Of a stretch of 64,000 nucleotides of DNA, positions 1,940 through 20,016 are shown one piece after another. The stretch is from Hahella sp. (GTDB lineage Bacteria; Pseudomonadota; Gammaproteobacteria; Pseudomonadales; Oleiphilaceae). The DNA is taken from NCBI GenBank assembly GCA_028280065.1, contig JANQMN010000035.1:1-64000 (forward strand), in the 5' to 3' direction. The stretch's first letter is position 1; every line of letters begins with the position of its first letter. A model generated the notes under the pieces. The model did no database searches. It saw only the letters and a list, made by a program, of their open reading frames with translations, and had not been told where the DNA came from. The position numbers were made by a program, and so were the translations under genes.

Positions 1940-2797
1940 TTAATGTGAAATGCCAATGATATCGTACTGTTGGTACTCAACCTGTTCATAAAAACGCTTT
2001 GAACGATCCAAAGTCATGTTGCCTTTTAGAGGAACTAGCCATTTGAAACTGCGGAGGTTTTCCGCTTTCGAAAAAATTCCTTCCGGTGTCAGATTTTCCC
2101 TGGAAAGAGTTGTTGGGTGAAGCTCGATAAATAGAATAACCTTACTTGCTTTGCTAATGGTATCCGAAGCACCAGCAAACATTTTTTGTTCTTGCCCCTC
2201 TACATCAACTTTAAGCACAATTGTCTCAGAGATTGGATAATCTAGTTGTGACGCGATCCGATCTACAGTTGTAACCTGGGTTTTACCTGATGCTGAAGTT
2301 TGAATATAGGCCTCATGATCTGAAGCAAGTTGCTGATTAAAAATCAAATCGGCAGAACCTTGATGGTCGGATATAGCGACGTTTAATAAAGCTTTTTTTG
2401 GCTTAAGTTTATTGATATTTTTATTTAGTATCTCGAATGAAATTGGATTCGGTTCCACAGCTATTAAGCTTGCTATGTTAGGGCAGTTGCCCACTAACAG
2501 TGCTGATACGACACCTATGTCTGCTCCCAGGTCGAATAGTGTAACTCGGTCATTTTCCCTGTTGATTGTTTCAATTAACGGATCTATTTCTTTTCGATAG
2601 TAATTCTCAGGACCATAGTCGAGCCAGAAGCACCATTGGTCCCACGGAACATAAAAGTTTTTTCCGTATAGATTGTGTTTAATTAGCCTGTTGCCATACC
2701 GAGCGAGAAATCGGCGATATAGCCAGTACTTTCCTGGAATTTCATATTTCTGCACCAAGACAAGCAATTGGTTGATAATCCAAGGAAAAGTTTTCAT
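1940..2797 (-). CDS. FkbM family SAM-dependent methyltransferase
   Basis: The 285-residue protein carries the FkbM-type fold. The SAM-binding motif DLGADIGVVS lies near residue 91, an acidic end of strand two (AVEPNP) follows near 113, and the family signature KVDVEGQEQ is near residue 200. FkbM enzymes O-methylate sugars, glycolipids or polyketides and are frequent in exopolysaccharide clusters. The start codon overlaps the last four bases of the exosortase gene upstream (2794-2797), so the two are almost certainly cotranscribed and translationally coupled. A role in methylating the exopolysaccharide or glycan associated with the exosortase is inferred from context only. Confidence 0.88.
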   Translation of the reverse strand: MKTFPWIINQLLVLVQKYEIPGKYWLYRRFLARYGNRLIKHNLYGKNFYVPWDQWCFWLDYGPENYYRKEIDPLIETINRENDRVTLFDLGADIGVVSALLVGNCPNIASLIAVEPNPISFEILNKNINKLKPKKALLNVAISDHQGSADLIFNQQLASDHEAYIQTSASGKTQVTTVDRIASQLDYPISETIVLKVDVEGQEQKMFAGASDTISKASKVILFIELHPTTLSRENLTPEGIFSKAENLRSFKWLVPLKGNMTLDRSKRFYEQVEYQQYDIIGISH

Positions 2798-4329
2798 TGG
2801 CGTTGTTCAAAAGGTAATACTGCAAGAACATCTGCATGGTGCTTCTCGGCTTTCGTACGGAGGAGGGCGAGTGCAGCCGCCTCAGAGTTATTGCTATCAA
2901 AAGAAAGGGAGTATGCGACGTAACCACCGGCTTTAGGTTTTCCCATGAGAGCATCAAACGTTTGCTTAAGCTTGATCTGCAGTTTGGAGCTTGATTGAAA
3001 ATTTTCAAGCAGGAAATAGCTTAAAACAACACGCTTTTGCCCTCCTGGCGTGGTAATGACTGACCCACTAAATGGCCCTGTGATGCTATCTGAGCCTATG
3101 GATTTTCTGGATAAAATATTCCACTTCTCGATATCGTAATCGCGATTGAGCGCAGAAATTAGTTCCCCTTCTGTGCGGCCACTATACCAAGCTAAATAAA
3201 CATCTATTTTTTGGTCTCCTTCCTGGAGATAGCCCGCCAGTTCCGCATCCGGATTTAGAATTCTTGGCTGCCAGTTTGGTGGCTTGTTGTCATAACTTTG
3301 TATCCAGGAGAAGGCCAAAGTTGCCTGGTAATCCGCTGACTTTTCAACACCAAAAGCAAGAATATAGATTTGTTGAGCTGCCAGAAAAAAAAGAATTATT
3401 GCTAAAGGCAGTTTGAATGTCGAGAGAATCCAATCAGACGAAGTTTTTTGTCGGGAATCCGTGGAAGATTCGGATGGCTGAAGACTTATGTTTTCTCTAC
3501 CGAACTCGCCGACCAGAATGAGTAGGAATAATACGATGCAGTAGAAAAACCATCCATAAATTAGGTGATCAGTGCCAACAGCGTGTTCCATGTCCGTAAG
3601 ATGGGCAACAAGAATAATGCCGTACACGCGAAAGATGTTTGCAACCATTGGCACTAATAATGCGACTACCCAGAAAACTGACTTCTTCCATAATTTTGTA
3701 TAGTTTAGGTGCGCATACAAGCTGCCGAACACCACCGATACAATGGTAAAACTAATACCGGAGCAGGCTTCAGCGACCAGAAAGCGTCCGTGTGGAATAT
3801 CGATGTATAAGCCATTTCGAAAGACGGGAACACCAGTGAGCTTCAGCAAAAATACGGACCATTCGGCAGCAATGTCCTGCAAGAAGGGGATTAACTGGTC
3901 ACCCGTAGGAATGGCAAAAACAAAGAAAAACAATGGGTAGGCGATGGTAAGCGCTACACGGACTCCAATACATAAGGCAATGGCAAGTGGCAAGAAACTA
4001 AATGCCGCCAGATGCTCAAGTAGTTGGATTTCTCCGAAGACGCCTAGGATGTATGCGAAGGATGTTAGCCCTAGCGGTGCTACAAGCAAAAGGTTTGGTT
4101 TCGGCTGTAGTTGTGCAAGGAAAAAACGTTGTCGATAAATTAGATATAAGGCGCCTGGGACAACGAATAGGCAGTGATTGAAAATCTCATTTCCTATCCA
4201 AATGTCATAAGCCGATGCTACGGCTGTCCAGAAACCGGCATACCAAGCAACAAGTAAACCGCAGAAGACAAGTGTGCTTAGCTTGTTGCGGCGAATGCTA
4301 GTGACAATTTCCCTAGTGAACTGAAACAA
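2794..4329 (-). CDS. xrtA: exosortase A (XrtA) with fused EpsI-type C-terminal domain
   Basis: This is the membrane transpeptidase-like enzyme that recognises PEP-CTERM tails, cuts them and passes the proteins on to the cell surface or matrix. The first ~290 residues form about eight membrane spans with the catalytic set expected for exosortases: Cys189 in EACSGISF, Arg234 in NIFRVYG and His255 in DHLIYGWFFY. After a last span near residue 310, the region to 511 resembles EpsI, which is fused to many XrtA proteins. The ATG at 4329 is the first plausible start. The gene overlaps the FkbM methyltransferase by four bases. PrsT, two associated acyltransferases and a PEP-CTERM substrate lie in the same window, which supports XrtA rather than another exosortase subtype. 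Confidence 0.93.
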   Translation of the reverse strand: MFQFTREIVTSIRRNKLSTLVFCGLLVAWYAGFWTAVASAYDIWIGNEIFNHCLFVVPGALYLIYRQRFFLAQLQPKPNLLLVAPLGLTSFAYILGVFGEIQLLEHLAAFSFLPLAIALCIGVRVALTIAYPLFFFVFAIPTGDQLIPFLQDIAAEWSVFLLKLTGVPVFRNGLYIDIPHGRFLVAEACSGISFTIVSVVFGSLYAHLNYTKLWKKSVFWVVALLVPMVANIFRVYGIILVAHLTDMEHAVGTDHLIYGWFFYCIVLFLLILVGEFGRENISLQPSESSTDSRQKTSSDWILSTFKLPLAIILFFLAAQQIYILAFGVEKSADYQATLAFSWIQSYDNKPPNWQPRILNPDAELAGYLQEGDQKIDVYLAWYSGRTEGELISALNRDYDIEKWNILSRKSIGSDSITGPFSGSVITTPGGQKRVVLSYFLLENFQSSSKLQIKLKQTFDALMGKPKAGGYVAYSLSFDSNNSEAAALALLRTKAEKHHADVLAVLPFEQRQ

Positions 4330-4540: not shown

Positions 4541-6307
4541 GTGTTCGATATCATCTTCGTTGCTTTTATTTCATTGCTTTCTCTGGGGTTGATGGCCAGC
4601 AACCGATATTCCTCCGATTTAGTGCTGGTTACGGCAGTTGCTATTTTGATTCTTTTCAATGTCTTGAAACCTGAGGAAGCATTGGCCGGATTTACTAATC
4701 CCGGACTGGTGACAATAGCTGTTTTATACGTTGTGGTGGCAGGATTACAAGCCACGGGAGCAGTTAGTTGGCTGAGCCAGTTTTTATTGGGGGTGCCGAA
4801 GAAACTCTCGTGGGCTTTACTGCGAATTTTAGTTGCCGCTATGTCGCTTAGTGCGTTTGTGAATAACAGTCCGGTAGTCGCCATATTTACCTCATCCATT
4901 CAAACATGGGCGAAAAGAACGCAATACCAAGCCTCTCAACTGTTAATGCCACTAAGTTACGCTGCAATTCTAGGGGGAACCTGTACACTAATCGGTACCA
5001 GTACCAACCTGGTTGTAGATGGCCTTGCAAAACAAAGCGGCATAGACGGCTTCGGCCTTTTTGACCTTGCGTATATAGGTATCCCAATCTGTCTTATTGG
5101 CCTTGTTTATTTACTAATATTCCCAAAATTTTTACTTCCGAATCGCCAGTCCGCAGAAGATCGGTTTGAAAATACCCGAGAGTATATGGTGCAAATGCGC
5201 GTTGAATCTGCTTCAGAGTTGGTCAATAGATCTATTGAAGAAGCTGGATTACGGCATTTGCCGGGTTTATTTTTGATTGAAATTAACCGAGGCAGTGAGG
5301 TTCTATCGGCAGTCGCACCATCCACCCGGATTCAAGCAGAAGACAAACTGGTATTTGTCGGCGCGGTGGAATCAGTGGTCGAACTTCGCAATATTCGCGG
5401 GTTAGTGGTCGATGATGATCAAAGTTTTAAGGTGCATGGTCAGAAAAGTGAAAGACGTTTGTTTGAAGCTGTTGTCGCTGCGGAAAACCCTATCGTTAGT
5501 AAAAGTATTCGCGTTTCCAGGTTTCGCCACCGATATAACGCTGCTGTTTTAGCTGTCGCCCGGAATGGGCAGCGGATTTCCGGGAAAGTCGGCGACATTG
5601 TGATTCAGCCTGGCGATATCCTGCTGCTAGAGGCGCAAAAGGGATTTCTATTTAAGTATCGCTATAGTAGGGACTTTCTATTGATTAATCGACTGGAGTC
5701 CGAGTCCGTTGGTGCTTATGAAAAGGCGCCTGTAGCGGCGGCTATTGTGGTGGCGATGGTTTTGCTCAATATTAGTGGACTATTTTCCATTCTTAATTCT
5801 GTGCTTCTCGCAGCAGGTGCGATGTTGCTAACAGGCTGTATAAATACTGAAACTGCCAGGAAATCAGTGGATTATCGTCTTCTTCTCACCATTGCGATGG
5901 CTTTTGGGCTGGGAATGGCAATACAAAAAACCGGGCTTGCTGAGATTGTGGTGGGTGGGTTGCGCCTCTATTCAGACGACAATCCTTGGCTGTTATTGAC
6001 TATGATTTACGTTATTACGGTCCTATTGACTGAAGTTGTAACGAATAATGCGGCGGCAATTGTAATGTTTCCAGTGGCGTTAGGAGCGGCGGAAAGCGGT
6101 GGATTGAGTCCATATCCATTCTTAGTGGCGGTGATGATTGCCGCGTCTGCGAGTTTTTTAACTCCTATTGGATACCAGACTAACCTTATGGTCCAGGGAC
6201 CAGGTGGGTATCGCTTCACAGATTACATCAAGCTAGGATTACCATTGAGTCTACTAGTGGGTATTACTGCTACCTTGCTTATTCCCATGGTGTGGCCATT
6301 TAGTTAG
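4541..6307 (+). CDS. SLC13/DASS-type anion permease with two RCK-C (TrkA-C) domains
   Basis: The 588-residue protein has two membrane halves separated by a soluble middle. The N-terminal half contains the signature-like SAFVNNSPVVA and the C-terminal half contains VVTNNAAAIV, matching the paired asparagine motifs of divalent-anion/sodium symporters. Residues ~205-375 look like two TrkA-C regulatory domains, a common arrangement in SLC13-like permeases of bacteria. The family moves dicarboxylates, sulfate or similar anions, and the substrate here is unknown. GTG at 4541 is the start. The gene is transcribed away from the exosortase gene across a 211-bp spacer in which I see no clear operator. 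Whether it belongs functionally to the exosortase locus is uncertain. Confidence 0.85.
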   Translation: MFDIIFVAFISLLSLGLMASNRYSSDLVLVTAVAILILFNVLKPEEALAGFTNPGLVTIAVLYVVVAGLQATGAVSWLSQFLLGVPKKLSWALLRILVAAMSLSAFVNNSPVVAIFTSSIQTWAKRTQYQASQLLMPLSYAAILGGTCTLIGTSTNLVVDGLAKQSGIDGFGLFDLAYIGIPICLIGLVYLLIFPKFLLPNRQSAEDRFENTREYMVQMRVESASELVNRSIEEAGLRHLPGLFLIEINRGSEVLSAVAPSTRIQAEDKLVFVGAVESVVELRNIRGLVVDDDQSFKVHGQKSERRLFEAVVAAENPIVSKSIRVSRFRHRYNAAVLAVARNGQRISGKVGDIVIQPGDILLLEAQKGFLFKYRYSRDFLLINRLESESVGAYEKAPVAAAIVVAMVLLNISGLFSILNSVLLAAGAMLLTGCINTETARKSVDYRLLLTIAMAFGLGMAIQKTGLAEIVVGGLRLYSDDNPWLLLTMIYVITVLLTEVVTNNAAAIVMFPVALGAAESGGLSPYPFLVAVMIAASASFLTPIGYQTNLMVQGPGGYRFTDYIKLGLPLSLLVGITATLLIPMVWPFS

Positions 6308-6500: not shown

Positions 6501-7616
6501 CTATTTGGGCCGGGTAATTTCATTCTTTGCAAAAAGGCTGCTTCCAAATAATGCTTCTAGGATAAGTTTGCCTCCTTTGGTAATCGTGTGAAAAAACAGA
6601 ATATGAAATGGCATTTTCAGTTTATGTCCACGAATAAACCCCAAAAATGCTGCTAGTTTGTAACCCGGCAGTGCAAAAAATGGGTGGTTCGGTGAAAGCA
6701 GGCGCAGGAAAATGTAGTCAAGTACCGGCATTGTCCAGGATCTATAGGGTTTCAGTTCTCGATACACCTCTATAGGTACCGGTGTGTTTAAGATTTTTTG
6801 GGTATATCGGCAAGCCAAATACAGCTCACCGGTAAATCCTGAAGTTTTTGCCATCGCAACCAACTTGGACCAGTAGGTGTTGTCTGCATTAGTCGTCATG
6901 AGAATATGCAAGTCTAACAAGTCCCTAAATCCATACTTGAAATCCTCATTAAAGAACAAGTGTACGAGGGAGTGCAGGGTCATGGCCTCCTTGGTAAAAG
7001 TCCAATGACCACTTTCAGAAAGTTCCACGTTGTTAAAAAAAACGGAGGAATCCGGTGCCCTGTTTGATACCGGTGGAACAATGTTGTGATGAATGTCTAG
7101 TACCGTGCCTCTCTCAGCATGTTTCATCGGTGGGATTTCGTGAGCCCAGGTCCGATAATATTTTTGGTCATAATCCGTCATTTTTTCGGGAAGCCATCCG
7201 TGAAGTGTTAGGTCTTTTTCGATGTTTTCTATGTGCTCTTTTGCGGTTAACACATCAATATCGCTGTAAGTTCTGCCAGCACCTACAGGGTGGCCGGATA
7301 GTGAGTAACCTGCGCCTTTTAAGAAAATGAACTGAGCATTGTACTTGGTGAGTTGCTTGGATAGTTGGCGAGCCTCAAACAGCACTTGGAGAGTTTGCTT
7401 CTCTGCAACAATTTCGGCATTAATCAAATGATGCTTAACATAATTATGAAGACTTTCAAATACCTGGAAATCTTTGAACCGAATTGCGTATCTTGCTAAA
7501 AGTTGTTGATGTCGGAGTGCGAGCACCACAAGTTGCCACTCTTTTAATGAAAGCTTTAGCGCGTCCTCCGGATTGGAGAAAAGTCTAATGAGAGTGTTCG
7601 CATCCATATCATGCAT
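6501..7616 (-). CDS. nucleotidyltransferase family protein (NTP_transf_5 type)
   Basis: The 371-residue protein has the pattern of the uncharacterised nucleotidyltransferase family PF14907: an LKGAGYSL block near residue 100, an Arg, then SDIDVL near residue 120, which supplies the metal-binding aspartates. A C-terminal helical region follows. It is the last gene of a four-gene minus-strand operon and its ATG overlaps the end of the HprK-related kinase gene by eight bases. Relatives of this family accompany HprK-like kinases and PqqD-like proteins, both in exosortase-bearing genomes and in some lasso-peptide clusters. It could transfer a nucleotide or nucleotidyl-activated group to the same target that the kinase acts on. 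That role is inference. Confidence 0.8.
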   Translation of the reverse strand: MHDMDANTLIRLFSNPEDALKLSLKEWQLVVLALRHQQLLARYAIRFKDFQVFESLHNYVKHHLINAEIVAEKQTLQVLFEARQLSKQLTKYNAQFIFLKGAGYSLSGHPVGAGRTYSDIDVLTAKEHIENIEKDLTLHGWLPEKMTDYDQKYYRTWAHEIPPMKHAERGTVLDIHHNIVPPVSNRAPDSSVFFNNVELSESGHWTFTKEAMTLHSLVHLFFNEDFKYGFRDLLDLHILMTTNADNTYWSKLVAMAKTSGFTGELYLACRYTQKILNTPVPIEVYRELKPYRSWTMPVLDYIFLRLLSPNHPFFALPGYKLAAFLGFIRGHKLKMPFHILFFHTITKGGKLILEALFGSSLFAKNEITRPK

Positions 7617-8496
7617 TGGCTATGATGTCTTCTTCTAGAAATTCTTTGACTTCTTCCAAATCGCTGTATTCGACTTCAAACACAGGAGCATCTTCTAAGA
7701 TATTGGATATGGTTTTGAAGCCTGTCGCTCCTATCACGCCGTAGTTGAAAGCGTTTGACGCAAATTCCATGAAACCTTCCGCCATCGTAAGTTTATAAAT
7801 TTTCAGTTCCGAACCCGCTTTGTATTTTGGGAAGACTATTCCACAAATTTTTGCAGGCGACTTGTGTTCTGACCAAGAAGGGTCAGGAGGAGAAAGATGA
7901 ATCACATCTCCCTTATGTGTATTTGGCGCAATCGAAGAGAATCTGTCGGCGGCAAACCACTTCTTGGCGATCTCAATAGAACGATTTTTAAGGCAAATTG
8001 GCCTTACAAAAGGGTAAACGGTATTGGAGTGGGGCTGAATAAGGGCCATTTCGTCGGAAAGCAGGCGCCAGTTTTTATAGACAAGATAGGCAGTGAGAGT
8101 GCTTTTTCCCGAACCGGGAGGCGCTGGAAATAGGATGGCTTTATTCTCTCTGGCCAGGACGGCGGAGTGGGTAATCACATGCTGCATTTCCATGGCTGCC
8201 ACGGTCCAGTTCATCCCCCATTCAAGAAGTGCATAGCCCTGATTAATTGCAAGAGGTTTGAATGGTTCCTTTTGGTCGCACAAGAAACGTGCCTGAGGTT
8301 TGACAATCTTGCGAACTCCAGAAGAGGAGATAGCGCTAACAGTGTAACTGCAGACCTTTGAGTTCTTGATTGATTCTCCATGGGAGACAATGCTGTCTGG
8401 ATAAATCCGGAATAGATTATCAACCACCAGCGGAATATTTGTATTGACCAGAAAACTAAATGGAGATAGGTCTATTGTAACCGGGACCGATTTCAA
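7609..8496 (-). CDS. HprK-related kinase A
   Basis: The 295-residue protein resembles the C-terminal catalytic half of HPr serine kinase/phosphorylase. It has a P-loop APPGSGKST at about residues 125-133, a following LSDEMALI segment equivalent to the SDD region of HprK, and a C-terminal part that could hold the remaining active-site loops. True HprK regulates HPr of the sugar phosphotransferase system. This group instead sits beside PqqD-like and nucleotidyltransferase genes, as here. No ATG or GTG is available between the previous in-frame stop and the conserved region, so TTG at 8496 was taken, with a weak GGA upstream. The 81-bp spacer to the PqqD-like gene and the 8-bp overlap with the nucleotidyltransferase gene indicate one operon. 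Confidence 0.85.
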   Translation of the reverse strand: MKSVPVTIDLSPFSFLVNTNIPLVVDNLFRIYPDSIVSHGESIKNSKVCSYTVSAISSSGVRKIVKPQARFLCDQKEPFKPLAINQGYALLEWGMNWTVAAMEMQHVITHSAVLARENKAILFPAPPGSGKSTLTAYLVYKNWRLLSDEMALIQPHSNTVYPFVRPICLKNRSIEIAKKWFAADRFSSIAPNTHKGDVIHLSPPDPSWSEHKSPAKICGIVFPKYKAGSELKIYKLTMAEGFMEFASNAFNYGVIGATGFKTISNILEDAPVFEVEYSDLEEVKEFLEEDIIANA

Positions 8497-8577
8497 GGGT
8501 GCTATCCAATTGCCAGGTTTTCCACTTTATGATTTGCAGTGCGATAAGTGGCGTTGACGGAAGTATAGATGGGGATG

Positions 8578-8820
8578 TCAGTCCTTGTTAAGTGCTGGGC
8601 TACTTTCAAGGATATCGTTTTTTAATAATATTCCTGCGATATCTTTGAGCTTTTGCTGTCTCTCTGTCTGATTATCGTAAACGTTTGAACCTAGATTGAG
8701 AATATCAGACAGTTCCTCAATACAAATGTACGAATGGCCCGAGCGCTCATCATATAAGACTGTCCCCGAGCCATCTGAAAAGGTATGTGAGTATACACCT
8801 TCTTGAATACTGAACTTGAT
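8578..8820 (-). CDS. HPr-rel-A system PqqD-like protein with non-standard start
   Basis: Reading the minus strand gives an 80-residue product with the shape of a PqqD-type winged helix: strands around FSIQEGVYSHTF and TVLYDERSGHSYIC, then a helix ELSDILNL. PqqD-like domains bind leader peptides and present them to modifying enzymes. The frame is closed by an in-frame stop 12 bases before the proposed start and contains no ATG, GTG or TTG. The only codon well placed after a Shine-Dalgarno-like AAGGA (nine bases away) is ATC at 8818-8820, one base from ATG. The gene may use a rare ATC start, may have just lost its ATG, or the base may be a sequencing error. It lies 81 bp before the HprK-related gene and 54 bp after the Tat-signal gene. 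Confidence 0.7.
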   Translation of the reverse strand: MKFSIQEGVYSHTFSDGSGTVLYDERSGHSYICIEELSDILNLGSNVYDNQTERQQKLKDIAGILLKNDILESSPALNKD

Positions 8821-8874
8821 CTTGCTTCGTCCTTAATTTCACTTGTGGTTTTTTAGGGAGCTAACCGAATTTGG

Positions 8875-9462
8875 CTAGCCCAATACCGTGCACGTACCGC
8901 CTTGATGACAAGAATTTAAAAAATCGTCTAGAAAGGCTGCCGTATTGAGTGGATTCTGTAGTGCCTCATTGTAAACATGTTTTGCATAGGACTTTGGATT
9001 TGAGAACGGATGGCCATCTGCTACCGGGTAGTAAACGGAATGAAATCCAGAATATGTGGCATTTAGGTACATAGCGACCAGCATTACATTAATATTGTTT
9101 GGGCCGGCAAAATTTGAGTCATTTAATACCACCTTAAGTTTACGATTCTTATCCGCATATCCTGCACTAACAATCAGTTTGCCCCCAAAAACGTAATTAA
9201 ATTTTTCTTCCTTTTCCGGCAGGCTATTAATTATACCTCGCCAGTAACCAGGTTTTTGCAACTGAATTGGGAATCCTCCCGCAAAGTCAGAGCCATGCCC
9301 GGACGCTACGATTGAAGCGGTAATTCCGATATTAGTAGCCCATACAGACTTACTTGAAAGTGCTGCAAGCGCAAATCCGGCTGCAGACCGCTGTAAGAAC
9401 TTACGTCTGCCATCACCATTTTCAATTGGTGCGTTTTGGCTGTCTTGATTGTTTGAGTCCAT
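8875..9462 (-). CDS. Tat-exported protein of unknown function
   Basis: The 195-residue protein begins with a polar stretch followed by GRRKFLQ (Arg19-Arg20), a hydrophobic segment and a likely cleavage site after SVWA near residue 42, which is a good twin-arginine signal. The mature part is about 150 residues with many Asn, Gly and Tyr and ends in CHQGGTCTVLG, with two cysteines close to the C-terminus. I do not recognise the family. It is the first gene of an operon with a PqqD-like protein, an HprK-related kinase and a nucleotidyltransferase. This makes it a candidate substrate of those enzymes, or a partner folded in the cytoplasm before export. ATG at 9462 has AGGG eight bases upstream. 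Confidence 0.75.
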   Translation of the reverse strand: MDSNNQDSQNAPIENGDGRRKFLQRSAAGFALAALSSKSVWATNIGITASIVASGHGSDFAGGFPIQLQKPGYWRGIINSLPEKEEKFNYVFGGKLIVSAGYADKNRKLKVVLNDSNFAGPNNINVMLVAMYLNATYSGFHSVYYPVADGHPFSNPKSYAKHVYNEALQNPLNTAAFLDDFLNSCHQGGTCTVLG

Positions 9463-10813: not shown

Positions 10814-11536
10814 TTGCTAGCAGAAAGTTACCTTCCAAACCCTATTCAAAACAATTTTTCACTATTTCTAGATGCCAATTCTTCCAGTACTTCCATTAGC
10901 ATCCATAAGGCTGTTAGTGATGAGATGGTGGGCGTATGTAAGAGAATTCGATTTGAAGTGTATTGCCAACAGCTTCATTTTGAGAATCCCGAAAGCTTTC
11001 CAAACCACAAGGAAGAAGATGATTTCGATGCTATTTCTCAGCACTTTTTAATTAAGAATGAGAAAACCAATAAATACATTGCTACCCTCAGGTTTGTGAT
11101 TCCGCGCTTCAATGCCTTCGGACTGATTCCGCTAGAGAGGCATTATCAAGGGCATTACATGGACTCCAAGTTCAATCCAGTTAATTTGGCAACTGGTAGT
11201 TATATGGAAGTTTCAAGACTTGCAATTCTTAGGGAAACAGGATCACGAAGGAAGTTTTCGGCAGATGTAGCCAGGGTTCTGTATTTGCTGTCACTGGCCT
11301 TTTTCAATGCCAATGAGCATTTGCAGAGTGCTTTTTGTTTCATGGACAAGCGTTTGGCTAGGAGACTCAATATGGTGGGTATTCCCTTTATCCAAATTGG
11401 TTCCGAGGTCGATTTTAAGGGGGCTAGAGCTCCGTTTTGCGTGTTTAAACATTCAACTAGCCACAATGTAAGTAGCTGTTCTAGAGCGCTGTATAGCTCT
11501 ATAAGAGCACAAAGCCACATATTAAAAGCCTGTTAG
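10814..11536 (+). CDS. PEP-CTERM/exosortase-associated acyltransferase, copy 1
   Basis: The 240-residue product matches the autoinducer-synthase-like acyltransferases that occur with exosortases (TIGR03694 type). It has IRFEVYCQQLHFE at about residues 45-57, an acidic EEDDFDAIS segment near 70, an IATLRFVI strand near 92 and a SRLAILRE block near 134. LuxI-type enzymes use the equivalent regions to bind an acyl donor. The product of the exosortase-linked family is not known. The apparent start is TTG at 10814 with AGGA eight bases before it. The next ATG (residue 38) would remove part of the N-terminus. It converges on a second, divergent copy that ends 49 bp away. The 283-bp spacer upstream shows no clear promoter. 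Confidence 0.82.
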   Translation: MLAESYLPNPIQNNFSLFLDANSSSTSISIHKAVSDEMVGVCKRIRFEVYCQQLHFENPESFPNHKEEDDFDAISQHFLIKNEKTNKYIATLRFVIPRFNAFGLIPLERHYQGHYMDSKFNPVNLATGSYMEVSRLAILRETGSRRKFSADVARVLYLLSLAFFNANEHLQSAFCFMDKRLARRLNMVGIPFIQIGSEVDFKGARAPFCVFKHSTSHNVSSCSRALYSSIRAQSHILKAC

Positions 11537-11584: not shown

Positions 11585-12391
11585 TTAAAGCTGTTTCAAA
11601 ATAGCTTTCTGGATGGAGACTTCCAGAGCTTTAAAACCAGGTTTAAGATTGGCGAGGAAGATTTTCGGGTTGATATAGTAAGGTGCTCTTTGCCCGTGAT
11701 AATTGACTGTTGGGCCTATTTGCTCGAACTTAATGCCAATCAATGCCATGCTGCGGGCAAGACGGGGTTCCATCATTACATACACATGTTTTCTGGATCT
11801 TTCAATGGTGATGCCTCCTGCAGCCAAATAAAGGCCTACTGAAATAAATGGAAAACACCGTAGTTCTTGCTCAGAGTATGTCTCCTCGTTAATAACACCC
11901 GTTGCTGCGCCTTGAAATTTGTCGGATTTCCGTCTTCTGAACTTTGAAAGCACTGCTAGTCTTGATATTTCCACTATTTCCGTTGGTTCAAATTTGTCCG
12001 GATTAAGCGCATGTTCCTGGTAAGTGTGAGAGCAATACTTTTGAATCGGCAGGAGCTCTTCTTTATCTCGCGGGCAAACTACCCTTACACAACCCGTGAA
12101 GCTATTTGATGGAAGATGTTTTACCATGCAAAACTCTGAAAAAGCATCGCAATAGTCCTTTTCCATCTTATCCGGTTTTGGTTCTTCAAATCCTAGTTCT
12201 TCACAATAAACTTCGTGTCGTATTTCAAAGACGCGTCTTCTCAGTTCGTCGTTATTTGCAATTACAGGCTCAAGGAATCGTTCAAAGTGCGTTGCAATAG
12301 ACTCTACTTCTTGGTCGACTTTGTTGGCTATCATGCCGCCCATGAGTTTTCCGCCAACTTTTGTTTGGGCGAATCTTTTAAGTAGGCTCAT
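11585..12391 (-). CDS. PEP-CTERM/exosortase-associated acyltransferase, copy 2
   Basis: This 268-residue protein is a diverged paralogue of the adjacent acyltransferase. Shared blocks include RRRVFEIRHEVYCEELGFE near residue 52, the acidic EKDYCDAFSEF near 80, FTGCVRVVCP near 98 and VEISRLAVLSKFRR near 140. It has an extra N-terminal segment of about 35 residues (with LMGGMIANK) and a basic insertion. The two genes face each other tail to tail, so they are not in one operon and could be expressed under different conditions. Two members so close suggest either neofunctionalisation or two acyl substrates. ATG at 12391 is the first start in frame. Confidence 0.82.
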   Translation of the reverse strand: MSLLKRFAQTKVGGKLMGGMIANKVDQEVESIATHFERFLEPVIANNDELRRRVFEIRHEVYCEELGFEEPKPDKMEKDYCDAFSEFCMVKHLPSNSFTGCVRVVCPRDKEELLPIQKYCSHTYQEHALNPDKFEPTEIVEISRLAVLSKFRRRKSDKFQGAATGVINEETYSEQELRCFPFISVGLYLAAGGITIERSRKHVYVMMEPRLARSMALIGIKFEQIGPTVNYHGQRAPYYINPKIFLANLKPGFKALEVSIQKAILKQL

Positions 12392-16320: not shown

Positions 16321-19104
16321 TTACAATTTCTTAAGTAGAGCCCGTGCATCTGTTTTTCCAGGAAAGTCTTGCTCAACTATAGCGAGGAGTAAATTCTTGG
16401 CCTTTTGATTGTTGCCCTTTTCTTTAAGTGCCATCGCATAGTGGAAGGCGATAGTGGGTTCTTCAGGCTTAAGTTCATGTGCCGTATTTAATAATTCGAC
16501 GGCATTGTCTACTTCACCTGCTCGTAGCAGTAAATATCCGAGAGTATCTAAAATTTGTGGGGTGTTAGGGCGCAACTTATTTGCCTGACTTGCATAGTCG
16601 ATTGCTTGAGTAAGCTTGCCTTGTTCGCCTAGCAGCCATGCAAGGTTGTTCAATGCGATGAAGTTTTGGTTATTTGTTTCAATTAATTGCTCATATTGTT
16701 GTATGGCTTCATTTTGATTAGTATTAAGTCCTATATTTGCCAAGAATAACCTTGCAGGTTGGTCGTCCGGATTCTCTGCTAACCAATCACGTATTACTTC
16801 CTTAGCTTTAACTGTATTCCCCAGTTGATTGTGTAACTCTGCGATACCGATTATTGAACGAGTCGACGGTGTTATTTCATGTAATCTGAGAAAGTGCTTA
16901 AGTGCGCGTTGAAAATCTGACTTCCTTGCATAATGGCGGCCCTGAAGTGCCTCAAGTCTTGGATCGCTTCCATATTCGCTTTCATGTCTTGCAATTTTGG
17001 ATAAAGCTTGTTGTTCTCTTCCTGTCTGAAGCAGTAATTGAATTTCATTAAACTTTAGCGTTTCACTGCCTGGTAGTTCGGAAATTCCATTCTGTACAGT
17101 TGTTAATGCATTTCGGTTCTGACCAAGATTTTGGTAAAGGCCAGCAAGAAACTGATAAGCAGTTTGTGATTTCGGAGATGCTGAAACCCAGTTCTTAGCG
17201 TAGGGAATGGCTTCTTCTGTACGGCCGATTTTGGCAAACATGCGTGCCATACCAATCTGGGCATTTGAATATTGAGGTGAATCGCTCTTAATGTTATTAA
17301 GCAAGGCTGTGGCTTTTTCAATATTGCGGTTATCCATATGCAGGCGGGCCAATACTAATTTCAAGCCATCATTTTCGCTATTCTCACTAACTATTTTAGA
17401 TACTCGATCAATAGCCTGCTGTTGTTCCCCTCGCTGCTTAGCCAATTGATAATAAATGCCGAGAGCTTTACCATCCGTTGGTAACAATGAAAGTACTTTA
17501 TCGTTATAGGTGTTTACTTGATCAAAGTTCTTTTCTAAAGCTGCCAAATCAACTAGTTTTCTATAAATGGGTGCCCTGGTTTCCGTTTTCTCTAAAGCTA
17601 ATGTAAGAGTTTGTTTTGCTTTTAACAGATTTCCTGTCTCCTTTTGAACTTCAGCGAGCAAAATATATCCTTCCAAATTATCGGGCTCTAGAGCTATAAG
17701 GTCGTTGGCGGTTTTAACGGCTGCATCAGAGTTTCCTGATTGAAGATAATTTCGTGCAAGTGCTGCCCGAGCCCAAAAAGAGCCTTTATCTTGTTCCAGG
17801 GCTTTTTCTAAATCAGCTAAGCCTGATACGTCATTTTGCTGAAGTTTTAGAATACCTAGTCGAGTTAAGACATCCGCGTTGTCGGGATTCAATCCAGCTG
17901 CAGTTTCAAACAGAGAGACGGCTTCGTCTATTTCACCTTTACGTGCCAATTCGCTTCCGTATGAGGATAGTAATGCTTCATCTCCTTGTTTTAGAGTTCC
18001 AATAGACTCAACTATGGTTTCTGCTGAGTTGGAGTATCCTAACTTAAACTCTGCATAAGAAAGCATCCTGTGAGCCATATGGTCTGGTTTAATAAAGCTT
18101 TTAACGGATCTAAGCCTATCACTGGCGACTGTCCAGTTCTTTAAATAAAAGTTCGCAATGCCTGAAATAAGCTTAGCCTCTTTATTAACTTCACTGAGAG
18201 TCAATGCCTTTTCAGCATGTTCTCTCGCACTTTCAAAGTCCCTTATTTGTAGTCGAATACGTGCCTTAATTAAATTCGAAAATAAGTGTTTGGGTGCGGC
18301 TTTTAGAACGGTATTAATATTCTTTTCAGCTTCATCCAACTGTTTGTTAACCAGATATACTCGAGATGCATTGATATACAGGTCTAGTCGATTGGGTTCT
18401 AATTCAATTGCTTTATTAACCGACTGAATTGCCGGTTCGATGTTTCTGAGGGCAAGAAATGCTTTGCTTTGAAGAATGTAAGCTTCTGTTATTTCAGGGT
18501 TTTTGCTGTTTATCTCACTAATAATGGCTAAAGCGTCATCGTAGTTCTCGAATAAGGCGTAGAGGTAAGCTTTTGCCAACATACCTGAAATAGAGTTCGG
18601 AGCTGTATTTGCAGCGGATTCAAAAATTGCTTCTGCCTCTTTAGCTTTCCCCAGGTTTAGCTGTGAAATGCCTTTATAGAGTAAACCGGTAGCAGTTTCC
18701 TCACCCAATAAGTGATCGAGATCTACCTTTAATACGTCATCATAGCGGTACTGATAATACATGGCCCTGATAAGTGGAATAGTTGTTTTATCCTCAGGAA
18801 TGCCAAGTTCTACTGCAAGAGAAAGCTCTTTTTCTGCTGCAGCACCCAACTGGGCTTTTAGGTAACGGAGTCCAAGCAGATACCTTGCTTCTGCATTCTC
18901 CGGATTCTGCTGCAATGTATTTTTTAATTCGATTTCATAAGACTGCATGTTTCCTTCTGCAGCATACTTCTTGGCAGAGGCAAGATACTCCTCGTCGGTC
19001 TTTTCTGCTTCACAAGCGGTTAATAGAAATACTGATAGCAAGATTATTGATAGAGCAGCCAGCTTTGAATGATTTTTGACCTGAAGGATAGGAGAGCCTT
19101 CCAT
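16321..19104 (-). CDS. prsT: PrsT, XrtA/PEP-CTERM system TPR-repeat lipoprotein
   Basis: The 927-residue protein begins with a lipoprotein signal (hydrophobic stretch ending LLTAC, with Cys at about residue 31), so the mature protein should be lipid-anchored in the envelope facing the periplasm. Nearly all the rest is a chain of about 20 tetratricopeptide repeats, seen as recurring A..YL..G....A.......P.N patterns. The length, lipobox and repeat content match PrsT, a marker of XrtA systems that probably helps export or assemble PEP-CTERM proteins or the associated polysaccharide. ATG at 19104 follows GGAG by six bases. The gene is divergent from a secreted serine protease gene (153-bp spacer). 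prsK and prsR, often nearby, are not in the window. Confidence 0.92.
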   Translation of the reverse strand: MEGSPILQVKNHSKLAALSIILLSVFLLTACEAEKTDEEYLASAKKYAAEGNMQSYEIELKNTLQQNPENAEARYLLGLRYLKAQLGAAAEKELSLAVELGIPEDKTTIPLIRAMYYQYRYDDVLKVDLDHLLGEETATGLLYKGISQLNLGKAKEAEAIFESAANTAPNSISGMLAKAYLYALFENYDDALAIISEINSKNPEITEAYILQSKAFLALRNIEPAIQSVNKAIELEPNRLDLYINASRVYLVNKQLDEAEKNINTVLKAAPKHLFSNLIKARIRLQIRDFESAREHAEKALTLSEVNKEAKLISGIANFYLKNWTVASDRLRSVKSFIKPDHMAHRMLSYAEFKLGYSNSAETIVESIGTLKQGDEALLSSYGSELARKGEIDEAVSLFETAAGLNPDNADVLTRLGILKLQQNDVSGLADLEKALEQDKGSFWARAALARNYLQSGNSDAAVKTANDLIALEPDNLEGYILLAEVQKETGNLLKAKQTLTLALEKTETRAPIYRKLVDLAALEKNFDQVNTYNDKVLSLLPTDGKALGIYYQLAKQRGEQQQAIDRVSKIVSENSENDGLKLVLARLHMDNRNIEKATALLNNIKSDSPQYSNAQIGMARMFAKIGRTEEAIPYAKNWVSASPKSQTAYQFLAGLYQNLGQNRNALTTVQNGISELPGSETLKFNEIQLLLQTGREQQALSKIARHESEYGSDPRLEALQGRHYARKSDFQRALKHFLRLHEITPSTRSIIGIAELHNQLGNTVKAKEVIRDWLAENPDDQPARLFLANIGLNTNQNEAIQQYEQLIETNNQNFIALNNLAWLLGEQGKLTQAIDYASQANKLRPNTPQILDTLGYLLLRAGEVDNAVELLNTAHELKPEEPTIAFHYAMALKEKGNNQKAKNLLLAIVEQDFPGKTDARALLKKL

Positions 19105-19257
19105 TTTTTTCTCCGCAATAATGAGGGTTTTTTATTATTGGTTTGTTCGATTCAATGTATAAGCATGGTGGATTGTAACGCTAGATTAGGCAGTATTAAA
19201 CCATTAAAGCTATGTTACGATGGCTTCATTAGTCGATTTTTATTGCTGGAGTTATCC

Positions 19258-20016
19258 ATGCTGCGAATAATGAGACCTGCTCTAGGATTTGGGTTGCTTT
19301 TACAGGTGTTTAGCGTCATTTTTGCGAATGCTTCGCTTCCGGACACCATCAAAAAGATTGAACCTTCCATAGTCGGTGTCGGCAGTTTCAATCCATTGGC
19401 AACACCTAGAGTTCAACTGAAGGGAACCGGATTCGCGATAAAGAATGGCCGCCAAGTTGTTACCAACTTTCACGTCGTTGCACCCATCCTGGCTGAAGAT
19501 AGCTCCAAAGTCGTGATAATGGTCGGCACTGGTCCTAAAGCACAAGTTTTTTCAGCAAAGCTTGAAGCACAGAAAGAAGAATACGATCTGGCGGTACTCA
19601 GCTTCGAAGGTAAAGCACTGCCAACATTGAAACTTAGCCAGCGAACGCTTGAAGAAGGCGAACAAATCGCCTTTACGGGATTCCCTATTGGCGCTGTACT
19701 TGGTCTCTACCCGGTTACACATAGAGGCATCATCAGTAGCGTTACGCCAGTCGCTGTGCCGGCGAATACGGCGAAAGGATTAACTGCCGATGTTGTCAGA
19801 CGTTTGCGTAACCCCTATTTCGTTTATCAGTTAGACGCCACGGCCTATCCTGGCAACAGTGGTAGCCCACTTTATGACCAAGCTACCGGTGAAGTCGTTG
19901 GCGTGATCAACAAAGTATTTGTGAAACGCAGCAAGGAGGCTGTGCTTAGTGATCCGAGCGGGATAACCTATGCTATTCCCGCCAAGTTCGTAAAGGAGCT
20001 GTTGGATGAACTTTAG
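19258..20016 (+). CDS. secreted trypsin-like serine protease (S1 family)
   Basis: The 252-residue product has an N-terminal signal peptide (LGFGLLLQVFSVIFANA) and a trypsin-fold body with the full triad visible: His in TNFHVVAP, Asp in EYDLAVLSF and Ser in PGNSGSPLYD. There is no PDZ domain, so it is a minimal DegP/HhoA-like or single-domain periplasmic protease rather than HtrA itself. I set the start at ATG 19258, preceded by TGGAG, because an upstream in-frame extension lacks a ribosome-binding site and would bury the signal peptide. It stands divergent from prsT, which hints at a shared envelope function, but composition here returns to that of the rest of the chromosome. Confidence 0.87.
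   Translation: MLRIMRPALGFGLLLQVFSVIFANASLPDTIKKIEPSIVGVGSFNPLATPRVQLKGTGFAIKNGRQVVTNFHVVAPILAEDSSKVVIMVGTGPKAQVFSAKLEAQKEEYDLAVLSFEGKALPTLKLSQRTLEEGEQIAFTGFPIGAVLGLYPVTHRGIISSVTPVAVPANTAKGLTADVVRRLRNPYFVYQLDATAYPGNSGSPLYDQATGEVVGVINKVFVKRSKEAVLSDPSGITYAIPAKFVKELLDEL

Follow-up and report, generated by a model that had tools for sequence, protein, structure and literature searches.

The closest published relative of the system described here is the linear polyphosphorylated peptide (LPP) family of ribosomally synthesized and post-translationally modified peptides (RiPPs), encoded by the lpp cluster of Bacillota and reported by Popov et al. in 2026 (PMC13381572). According to the passages of that paper drawn on here, LppK, which has a RiPP recognition element (RRE) and a nucleoside triphosphate (NTP) transferase as partners, places up to four phosphates on core Ser3, directly behind the cleavage site. 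Lasso peptides offer a second precedent: as summarized in the excerpted part of a review (PMC9266682), PadeK phosphorylates the C-terminal serine of the paeninodin precursor, and PsmN is responsible for hexoses on the phosphoserine, its nature as a nucleotidyltransferase being left open there. Here we describe a four-gene operon from Hahella sp., located in a stretch of 64,000 nucleotides (assembly GCA_028280065.1, contig JANQMN010000035.1, positions 1 to 64,000; hereafter the window). It encodes a protein with a twin-arginine translocation (Tat) signal, a PqqD-like adaptor, an HprK-related kinase and an enzyme of the NTP_transf_5 type. Comparative evidence strongly supports an RRE-guided kinase and NTP-transferase system with the neighbouring Tat protein as its substrate, and similar gene sets recur in more than 100 other bacterial genomes.

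The four genes are confirmed at their places on the minus strand by the open frames of the window and by matches to TIGR04352 and PF14907, bearing out a first-pass annotation, made from the sequence alone, that had listed them as consecutive. The proposed substrate, a 195-residue Tat-signal protein whose family members stand beside kinases elsewhere, occupies 8875..9462. Its signal peptide covers approximately residues 1-42 (9337..9462), with the twin arginines at residues 19 and 20 and predicted cleavage after VWA; it scores just under the TIGR01409 cut-off (16.6 against 16.7 bits), and TatC is encoded in the same genome. The C-terminal tail CHQGGTCTVLG with its two cysteines, also remarked on in that annotation, is present at 8878..8910. 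The adaptor (8578..8820), the kinase (7609..8496) and the nucleotidyltransferase-like enzyme (6501..7616) complete the unit, the last two sharing 8 bp as listed. The kinase frame starts at TTG, and the adaptor frame lacks an ATG, GTG or TTG start: it opens after a TAA and apparently begins at ATC, with an AAGGA-like stretch ahead. Two congeners (loci L033 and L034) have ATG where the window has ATC (RRE, 8578-8820) and TTG (kinase, 8496). The odd starts are either rare starts that hold the enzyme below the level of its substrate or a sequence error.

Both enzymes belong to recognized families and keep residues of the catalytic type. The kinase is an HprK_rel_A protein, scoring 292 bits against TIGR04352 (NCBIfam, cut-off 200), with its P-loop PPGSGKST at 8098-8121. 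GSGKST, one histidine and an S-D-E set are invariant in all seven kinases compared, and the kinase profile aligns weakly with HPr kinase/phosphorylase among the sequences of the Protein Data Bank (PDB; E 0.03). The nucleotidyltransferase matches PF14907 (NTP_transf_5) at 138 bits (Pfam, cut-off 31). Across a 19-row alignment G114, R115, D119, D121 and D174 are invariant, giving the pattern GR-x3-D-x-D plus a third aspartate, which we take to be the arrangement of active nucleotidyltransferases. A search of PDB sequences with the NTP_transf_5 profile returned no match.

Sequence comparison and modelling support an RRE fold for the adaptor. The window protein matches the PqqD-like proteins of its congeners at 30% identity (E 7e-5 and 1.6e-5), and a search of PDB sequences with the family profile recovers two RREs of lasso-peptide systems, TfuB1 (E 2e-4) and TbiB1 (E 0.0023). 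The predicted model of the window protein, with a mean predicted local distance difference test score of 74, best matches TbiB1 bound to a leader (template-modelling score 0.66-0.71, E 0.0018-0.037, none below 0.001), followed by PqqD at E 0.16. The locus also resembles the HPr-rel-A system (TIGR04352, TIGR04353): the kinase is over cut-off, an NTP_transf_5 enzyme is present, and the PqqD-like proteins of L038, L060, L031, L180 and L264 exceed the cut-off of TIGR04353 (PqqD_rel_X). The window adaptor, however, fails TIGR04353, without a match at E ≤ 1, and L033 and L032 give none at E ≤ 0.1. The NCBIfam names seen for the HPr-rel-A system carry no substrate, and a published HprK_rel_A substrate was not found in the open-access literature. 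Nor did searches of the open PMC literature yield a paper on an HprK-related kinase with PqqD or an exosortase, on PqqD with an exosortase, or on an RRE with a kinase and a twin-arginine signal. None of the papers listed by other searches concerned HPr-rel-A or HPr kinase, and a term search of PMC1569441 returned no mention of HPr or PqqD.

The assignment of the substrate is carried by the constant company of kinase and Tat protein. HprK_rel_A is over cut-off in 8 of 58 related genomes, including 3 of the 7 from the window's genus. In six of the seven relatives other than the window, a Tat-signal gene precedes the PqqD-like and kinase genes; the seventh, L035, lies at a contig end and is partly masked. 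A scan with a kinase alignment over 84,980 species, one genome each, gave at least 413 confirmed relatives, the best 80 of which were used, with a lean towards the class of Tat protein called A below. These 80 loci, the seven from relatives and the window make up an 88-locus set. Iterated profiles recognize the Tat family in 87 of its loci (not L047), the PqqD-like protein in 85 (not the window, L032 or L047) and NTP_transf_5 in 87 (L035 ends first), and the Tat profile selects 88 of the 11,894 open frames in the set.

An even draw of 369 genomes of the taxonomic class shows the same association. TIGR04352 is over cut-off in 41 genomes and the Tat profile matches in 37 at E ≤ 1e-5, with both present in 32 (Fisher p 1e-32). 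In 31 of these 32 the kinase is preceded, within about 1.1 kb and on its own contig and strand, by the Tat match, and G072 has a domain-only match elsewhere. G072 and the nine kinase genomes left over make ten, and in nine of these the corresponding position is occupied by another kind of Tat-signal protein; the locus of the last, L181, runs into a contig end. A Tat neighbour thus stands at 40 of the 41 kinases in this draw. Five genomes match the Tat profile without an over-cut-off kinase: the matches in G137, G141, G156 and G271 lack the signal part, and in G240 a divergent kinase and a PqqD-like gene lie close to a Tat peptide. In a phylum draw the kinase is over cut-off in 61 of 398 genomes; 40 of the 61 loci were examined, giving 9 of class A, 26 of class B and 5 without a recognisable Tat protein. 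Over all samples there are 138 distinct kinases: 96 stand next to a class A Tat protein and 35 next to one of class B, 131 in total, and the other 7, L181 included, have none. The first-pass annotation had made its proposal depend on the Tat family co-occurring with the kinase across genomes, and this is what the survey found. A Tat family restricted to the window's locus is ruled out by its members in other loci.

Class A, to which the window protein belongs, points to a candidate target site. Its members consist of a signal peptide, a short segment rich in serine and glycine, and a domain of the pattern C-x-G-x-[ST]-P-G-[YF]-W-K...W-P...L-N-A. Behind the signal peptide, two serines at a spacing of four (S-x3-S) occur in 86 of 86 class A discovery proteins and form, with the twin arginines, the most conserved columns. 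An independent 85-row alignment contains exactly four invariant columns, R19, R20, S50 and S54 in window numbering. The partly masked L035 and L047, which has no Tat protein, are outside the motif counts, and L052, cut by a contig start, is outside the 85-row alignment. In the window the motif lies within codons 47-58 (I-T-A-S50-I-V-A-S54-G-H-G-S58; 9289..9324, minus strand), and the third serine is retained in 88% of class A. Held-out class A proteins keep the motif in 33 of 36 cases, 32 with serine at both alignment columns and L169 by eye. Of the 39 loci at the start, two overlapped with the discovery set, and L177 has only the domain without a Tat signal; the other 35 were joined by L259, which the profile had missed.

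Structural prediction is compatible with this placement. In the model of the window Tat protein, helices fall between residues 71 and 185, and residues 35-62, which include the serines, are of low confidence, as if this stretch were flexible and so suited to a modification site. A PDB fold search with this model found nothing better than E 3.8, and the Tat-family profile gave only chance-level matches to PDB sequences. None of the Tat partners tested matches a Pfam or NCBIfam family over cut-off, and the window protein has no such match beyond its signal. In 78 of 86 class A proteins a cysteine lies no more than six residues ahead of the first serine; a lipoprotein role for it was rejected, the lipobox [LVI][ASTVI][GAS]C being found in 0 of 86. 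In L195 (G137) a PGYWK-type domain ends a 650-residue frame that has no Tat-signal part, which indicates that domain and modification motif can occur apart. L194 (G352) encodes a second class A Tat protein with an S-G-x2-S-G-N motif and has no kinase-profile match in the stretch examined. Since the kinase of that genome lies on another contig, this protein is a candidate substrate in trans.

Class B Tat proteins have a mature part unrelated to that of class A, and the seven tested gave no Pfam match. Their conserved feature lies at the other end of the protein: C-x-x-S-[FILV] occurs in the last 22 residues of 26 of 30, compared with 2.8% of shuffled tails, a count resting on the 30 of 35 class B proteins that were found without use of the tail motif. 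Typical endings are SCWTSFY (L238), SCWNSFMQP (L234) and TCFASLQYRR (L263); L178, L179, L182 and L186 do not fit the pattern exactly. Some class B proteins are precursor-sized, such as that of L180 with about 75 residues. Because two unrelated classes both keep a motif serine, serine is the common denominator of the substrates. The class of the substrate also tracks the kinase tree, with 9 label changes against a mean of 38.1 after shuffling (0 of 200 shuffles as low); the labels were assigned by the analyst, and L035 was counted as class A. This is the pattern expected of cognate pairs, though near relatives also cluster together.

Taken together, these observations make it probable that the operon encodes a RiPP-like system that modifies a Tat protein of full size, with the Tat signal doubling as the leader. 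A signal that serves as leader, and a motif serine that is phosphorylated and then capped, would be the most economical account of the system. The PqqD-like RRE would bind the N-terminal region of the Tat pre-protein and present the flexible segment behind the signal peptide to the kinase. The kinase could then phosphorylate one or both motif serines (S50 and S54, perhaps also S58), after which NTP_transf_5 would add a further group to the phosphate, probably a sugar or a nucleotide. This last addition is the least certain of the steps. Tat would finally export the decorated protein, and cleavage by signal peptidase would leave the modified serine some residues behind the new N terminus. The product may serve at the cell surface or in connection with exopolysaccharide. 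The core of the earlier proposal, RRE-guided modification of the Tat protein, is thus upheld by co-occurrence, the match to the kinase tree, the RRE fold and published precedent, with the modification itself being what we infer from them. The second architecture, class B, and the candidate target site are new here.

This scheme shares with LPP biosynthesis a discrete RRE, an HprK-like kinase and an NTP transferase, according to the parts of PMC13381572 used here. The phosphoserine of LPP also lies near the N terminus of the core, behind a signal-peptidase-type cleavage site, and the class A motif is similarly placed. The occurrence of LPP clusters in polysaccharide loci can be counted as a further shared trait (PMC13381572). 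LPP systems differ: they include a dedicated SpI-like peptidase and an MsbA-like transporter, and their leader carries [Y/W]xxP, where the present system has a Tat-signal leader and presumably uses the general signal peptidase; its substrate, moreover, can hold a predicted folded domain. Inspection by eye, made without a model search, revealed no SpI-like peptidase or MsbA-like transporter near the operon or among the biggest clusters of flanking genes at the 80 scan loci. The lasso systems of paeninodin and pseudomycoidin also use an HprK-like kinase on a serine, a hexose-linked NTP-transferase homologue and an RRE of the same fold (B1), and the C-terminal serine of paeninodin recalls the class B motif (PMC9266682, as excerpted). 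In contrast to lasso peptides, the substrates here are Tat proteins, roughly 75 to 285 residues long. Among the open frames in the first 16 kb of the window, inspection by eye, likewise without a model search, recognized neither a macrolactam cyclase nor a B2 protease. By analogy, then, class A resembles the LPP arrangement and class B the paeninodin type.

Several observations weigh against this interpretation. Six loci away from contig ends lack a recognisable Tat neighbour (L047, L243, L244, L251, L256 and L266). Among the held-out proteins, L175 has threonine at the first serine, L258 lacks the pattern at the aligned columns, and L259 shows a serine spacing of three by eye. A looser control is weak, since S-x3-S anywhere in a 40-residue stretch occurs in 83 of 86 proteins and in 44% of shuffles; some RR positions were mis-assigned in that control, and the 86 of 86 count uses corrected positions. 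The window protein and those of its two congeners belong to the eight that have no cysteine ahead of the serine. The window adaptor is divergent and falls outside every PqqD model, with no Pfam or NCBIfam match at E ≤ 1. Deletion of the NTP-transferase gene lppN had no effect in a heterologous host, as far as the cited part of PMC13381572 reports. The leader motif bound by lasso and LPP RREs, [Y/W]xxP, appears in only 3 of 86 class A leaders, so leader recognition must differ from that of known RREs. As a lead only, T-[LVI] stands near the end of the hydrophobic region in 70 of 86 class A proteins, with class B examples alike by eye. The control for this feature comprised just 7 Tat-signal open reading frames, 5 of them system members, and some of the searches for Tat proteins themselves required T/S-[LIVM].

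Other explanations fit parts of the same evidence. The first-pass annotation had expected the C-terminal cysteine tail to be the modified feature, and indeed the window has such a tail, and other kinases have class B partners in which a C-terminal C-x-x-S is conserved. In class A, however, the tail is unconserved: CxxS[FILVA] ends 0 of 86 proteins, and at least two cysteines occur within the last 15 residues in only 4 of 86, three of them from the window's genus. The neighbourhood survey thus upheld the Tat protein as a companion of the kinase without the shared tail. Characterised HprK-like relatives, as described in the parts of PMC13381572 and PMC9266682 used, modify serine. Cysteine modification in the tail is accordingly very improbable, and the candidate site is S-x3-S behind the signal peptide. 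The enzymes might instead modify another small precursor peptide, or a sugar or lipid, with the Tat protein acting as the periplasmic partner of the finished product. Published RRE systems do act on peptides in the same sources, and a trypsin-like gene recurring in the flanks of 23 of 80 loci implies that other partners exist. An exosortase (PF09721) is also present in 38 of 41 kinase genomes of the class-level draw compared with 79 of 328 others (p 4e-18), and XrtA-system genes adjoin at least two of the class B loci. Besides the Tat gene, though, only the PqqD-like (85 of 88) and NTP_transf_5 (87 of 88) genes are so constant next to the kinase. The architecture of the Tat partner changes together with the kinase clade, and the smallest class B proteins are themselves of precursor size, leaving a separate substrate unlikely.

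A slightly smaller chance attaches to a regulatory kinase that phosphorylates the Tat protein reversibly, as a check on the quality or timing of export, so that the exported form is not permanently modified. HPr kinase, a distant relative, is after all named kinase/phosphorylase, and the unphosphorylated LPP precursor is poorly cleaved (PMC13381572, in part). Against such a role, the substrate that accompanies the kinase, RRE and transferase is an exported one, and the published relatives covered by the excerpt of PMC9266682 yield stable phospho- or glyco-phosphoserine.

If RRE-guided modification of the Tat protein is correct, the HPr-rel-A system gains a substrate and a candidate site. RRE-guided phosphoserine chemistry would extend from lasso peptides and LPP precursors, given as 35-200 residues in the excerpted literature, to Tat-exported proteins, and the two sequence motifs offer a means of seeking such substrates in other genomes. 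A testable link would also arise between exosortase- and exopolysaccharide-producing bacteria and protein modification. More broadly, HprK_rel_A and related HprK-like kinases may define a widespread, unrecognised class of proteins that are modified under RRE guidance and have a Tat-signal leader. Their serines, in an N-terminal S-x3-S-G or a C-terminal C-x-x-S-[FILV], would first be phosphorylated, and NTP_transf_5 would then cap them with a sugar or a nucleotide. The resulting glyco-phosphoproteins, once exported, would attach to exopolysaccharide or prime it in bacteria that carry an exosortase. This wider proposal is tentative, and we consider it possible rather than probable.

The surroundings of the operon include genes of the exosortase system. 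Exosortase A (XrtA) is encoded at 2794..4329 on the minus strand (TIGR03109, 288 bits). In the congeners L033 and L034 its gene comes immediately after that of NTP_transf_5, and in the window a plus-strand membrane-protein gene, transporter-like by eye, intervenes at 4541-6307. Two exosortase-system acyltransferases, both over the TIGR03694 cut-off, lie near the operon on opposite strands (10814-11536 and 11585-12391). Among the class B loci beside XrtA-system genes, L232 has TIGR03088 over cut-off, and L233 has TIGR03108 as best match, below its cut-off and in a frame that is truncated where the stretch ends. The earlier remark that such gene sets recur beside exosortases holds at the genome level and in the three kinase-bearing genomes of the window's genus; elsewhere the exosortase is usually not local. 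An exosortase-like gene is in the examined stretch of 1 of 80 scan loci and 0 of 50 loci in a second set, and an exosortase as obligate local neighbour was rejected on the former count, made with a profile of three XrtA sequences and limited in sensitivity.

The trypsin-like protein is the most frequent other real flank gene. Flank clustering was crude: an antisense open frame took the place of some kinases (52 of 80), and the PqqD-like proteins were split (17), which is why profile counts from the 88 loci were used instead. The window's own trypsin-like protein, recognized by eye at 19069-20016, has homologues in the 23 loci, the best listed match at 49% identity; members of the cluster sit at a median of about 2.6 kb ahead of the kinase, and the protein is possibly a maturation protease of the system. 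Homologues of a TPR-type protein encoded at 16321-19104, presumably PrsT-like, are present at 15 of the 80 kinase loci.

At L190, L191, L193 and L196, NTP-transferase-like genes accompany HprK-like kinases of a divergent kind. The kinase frame of L190, which is below the TIGR04352 cut-off, matches the PqqD-like profile (E 9e-4), an apparent RRE-kinase fusion, and those of L191 and L193 resemble it by eye. At L193 and L196, Tat-signal peptides lie just upstream of the divergent kinase, suggesting that the kinase and Tat theme may extend beyond TIGR04352.

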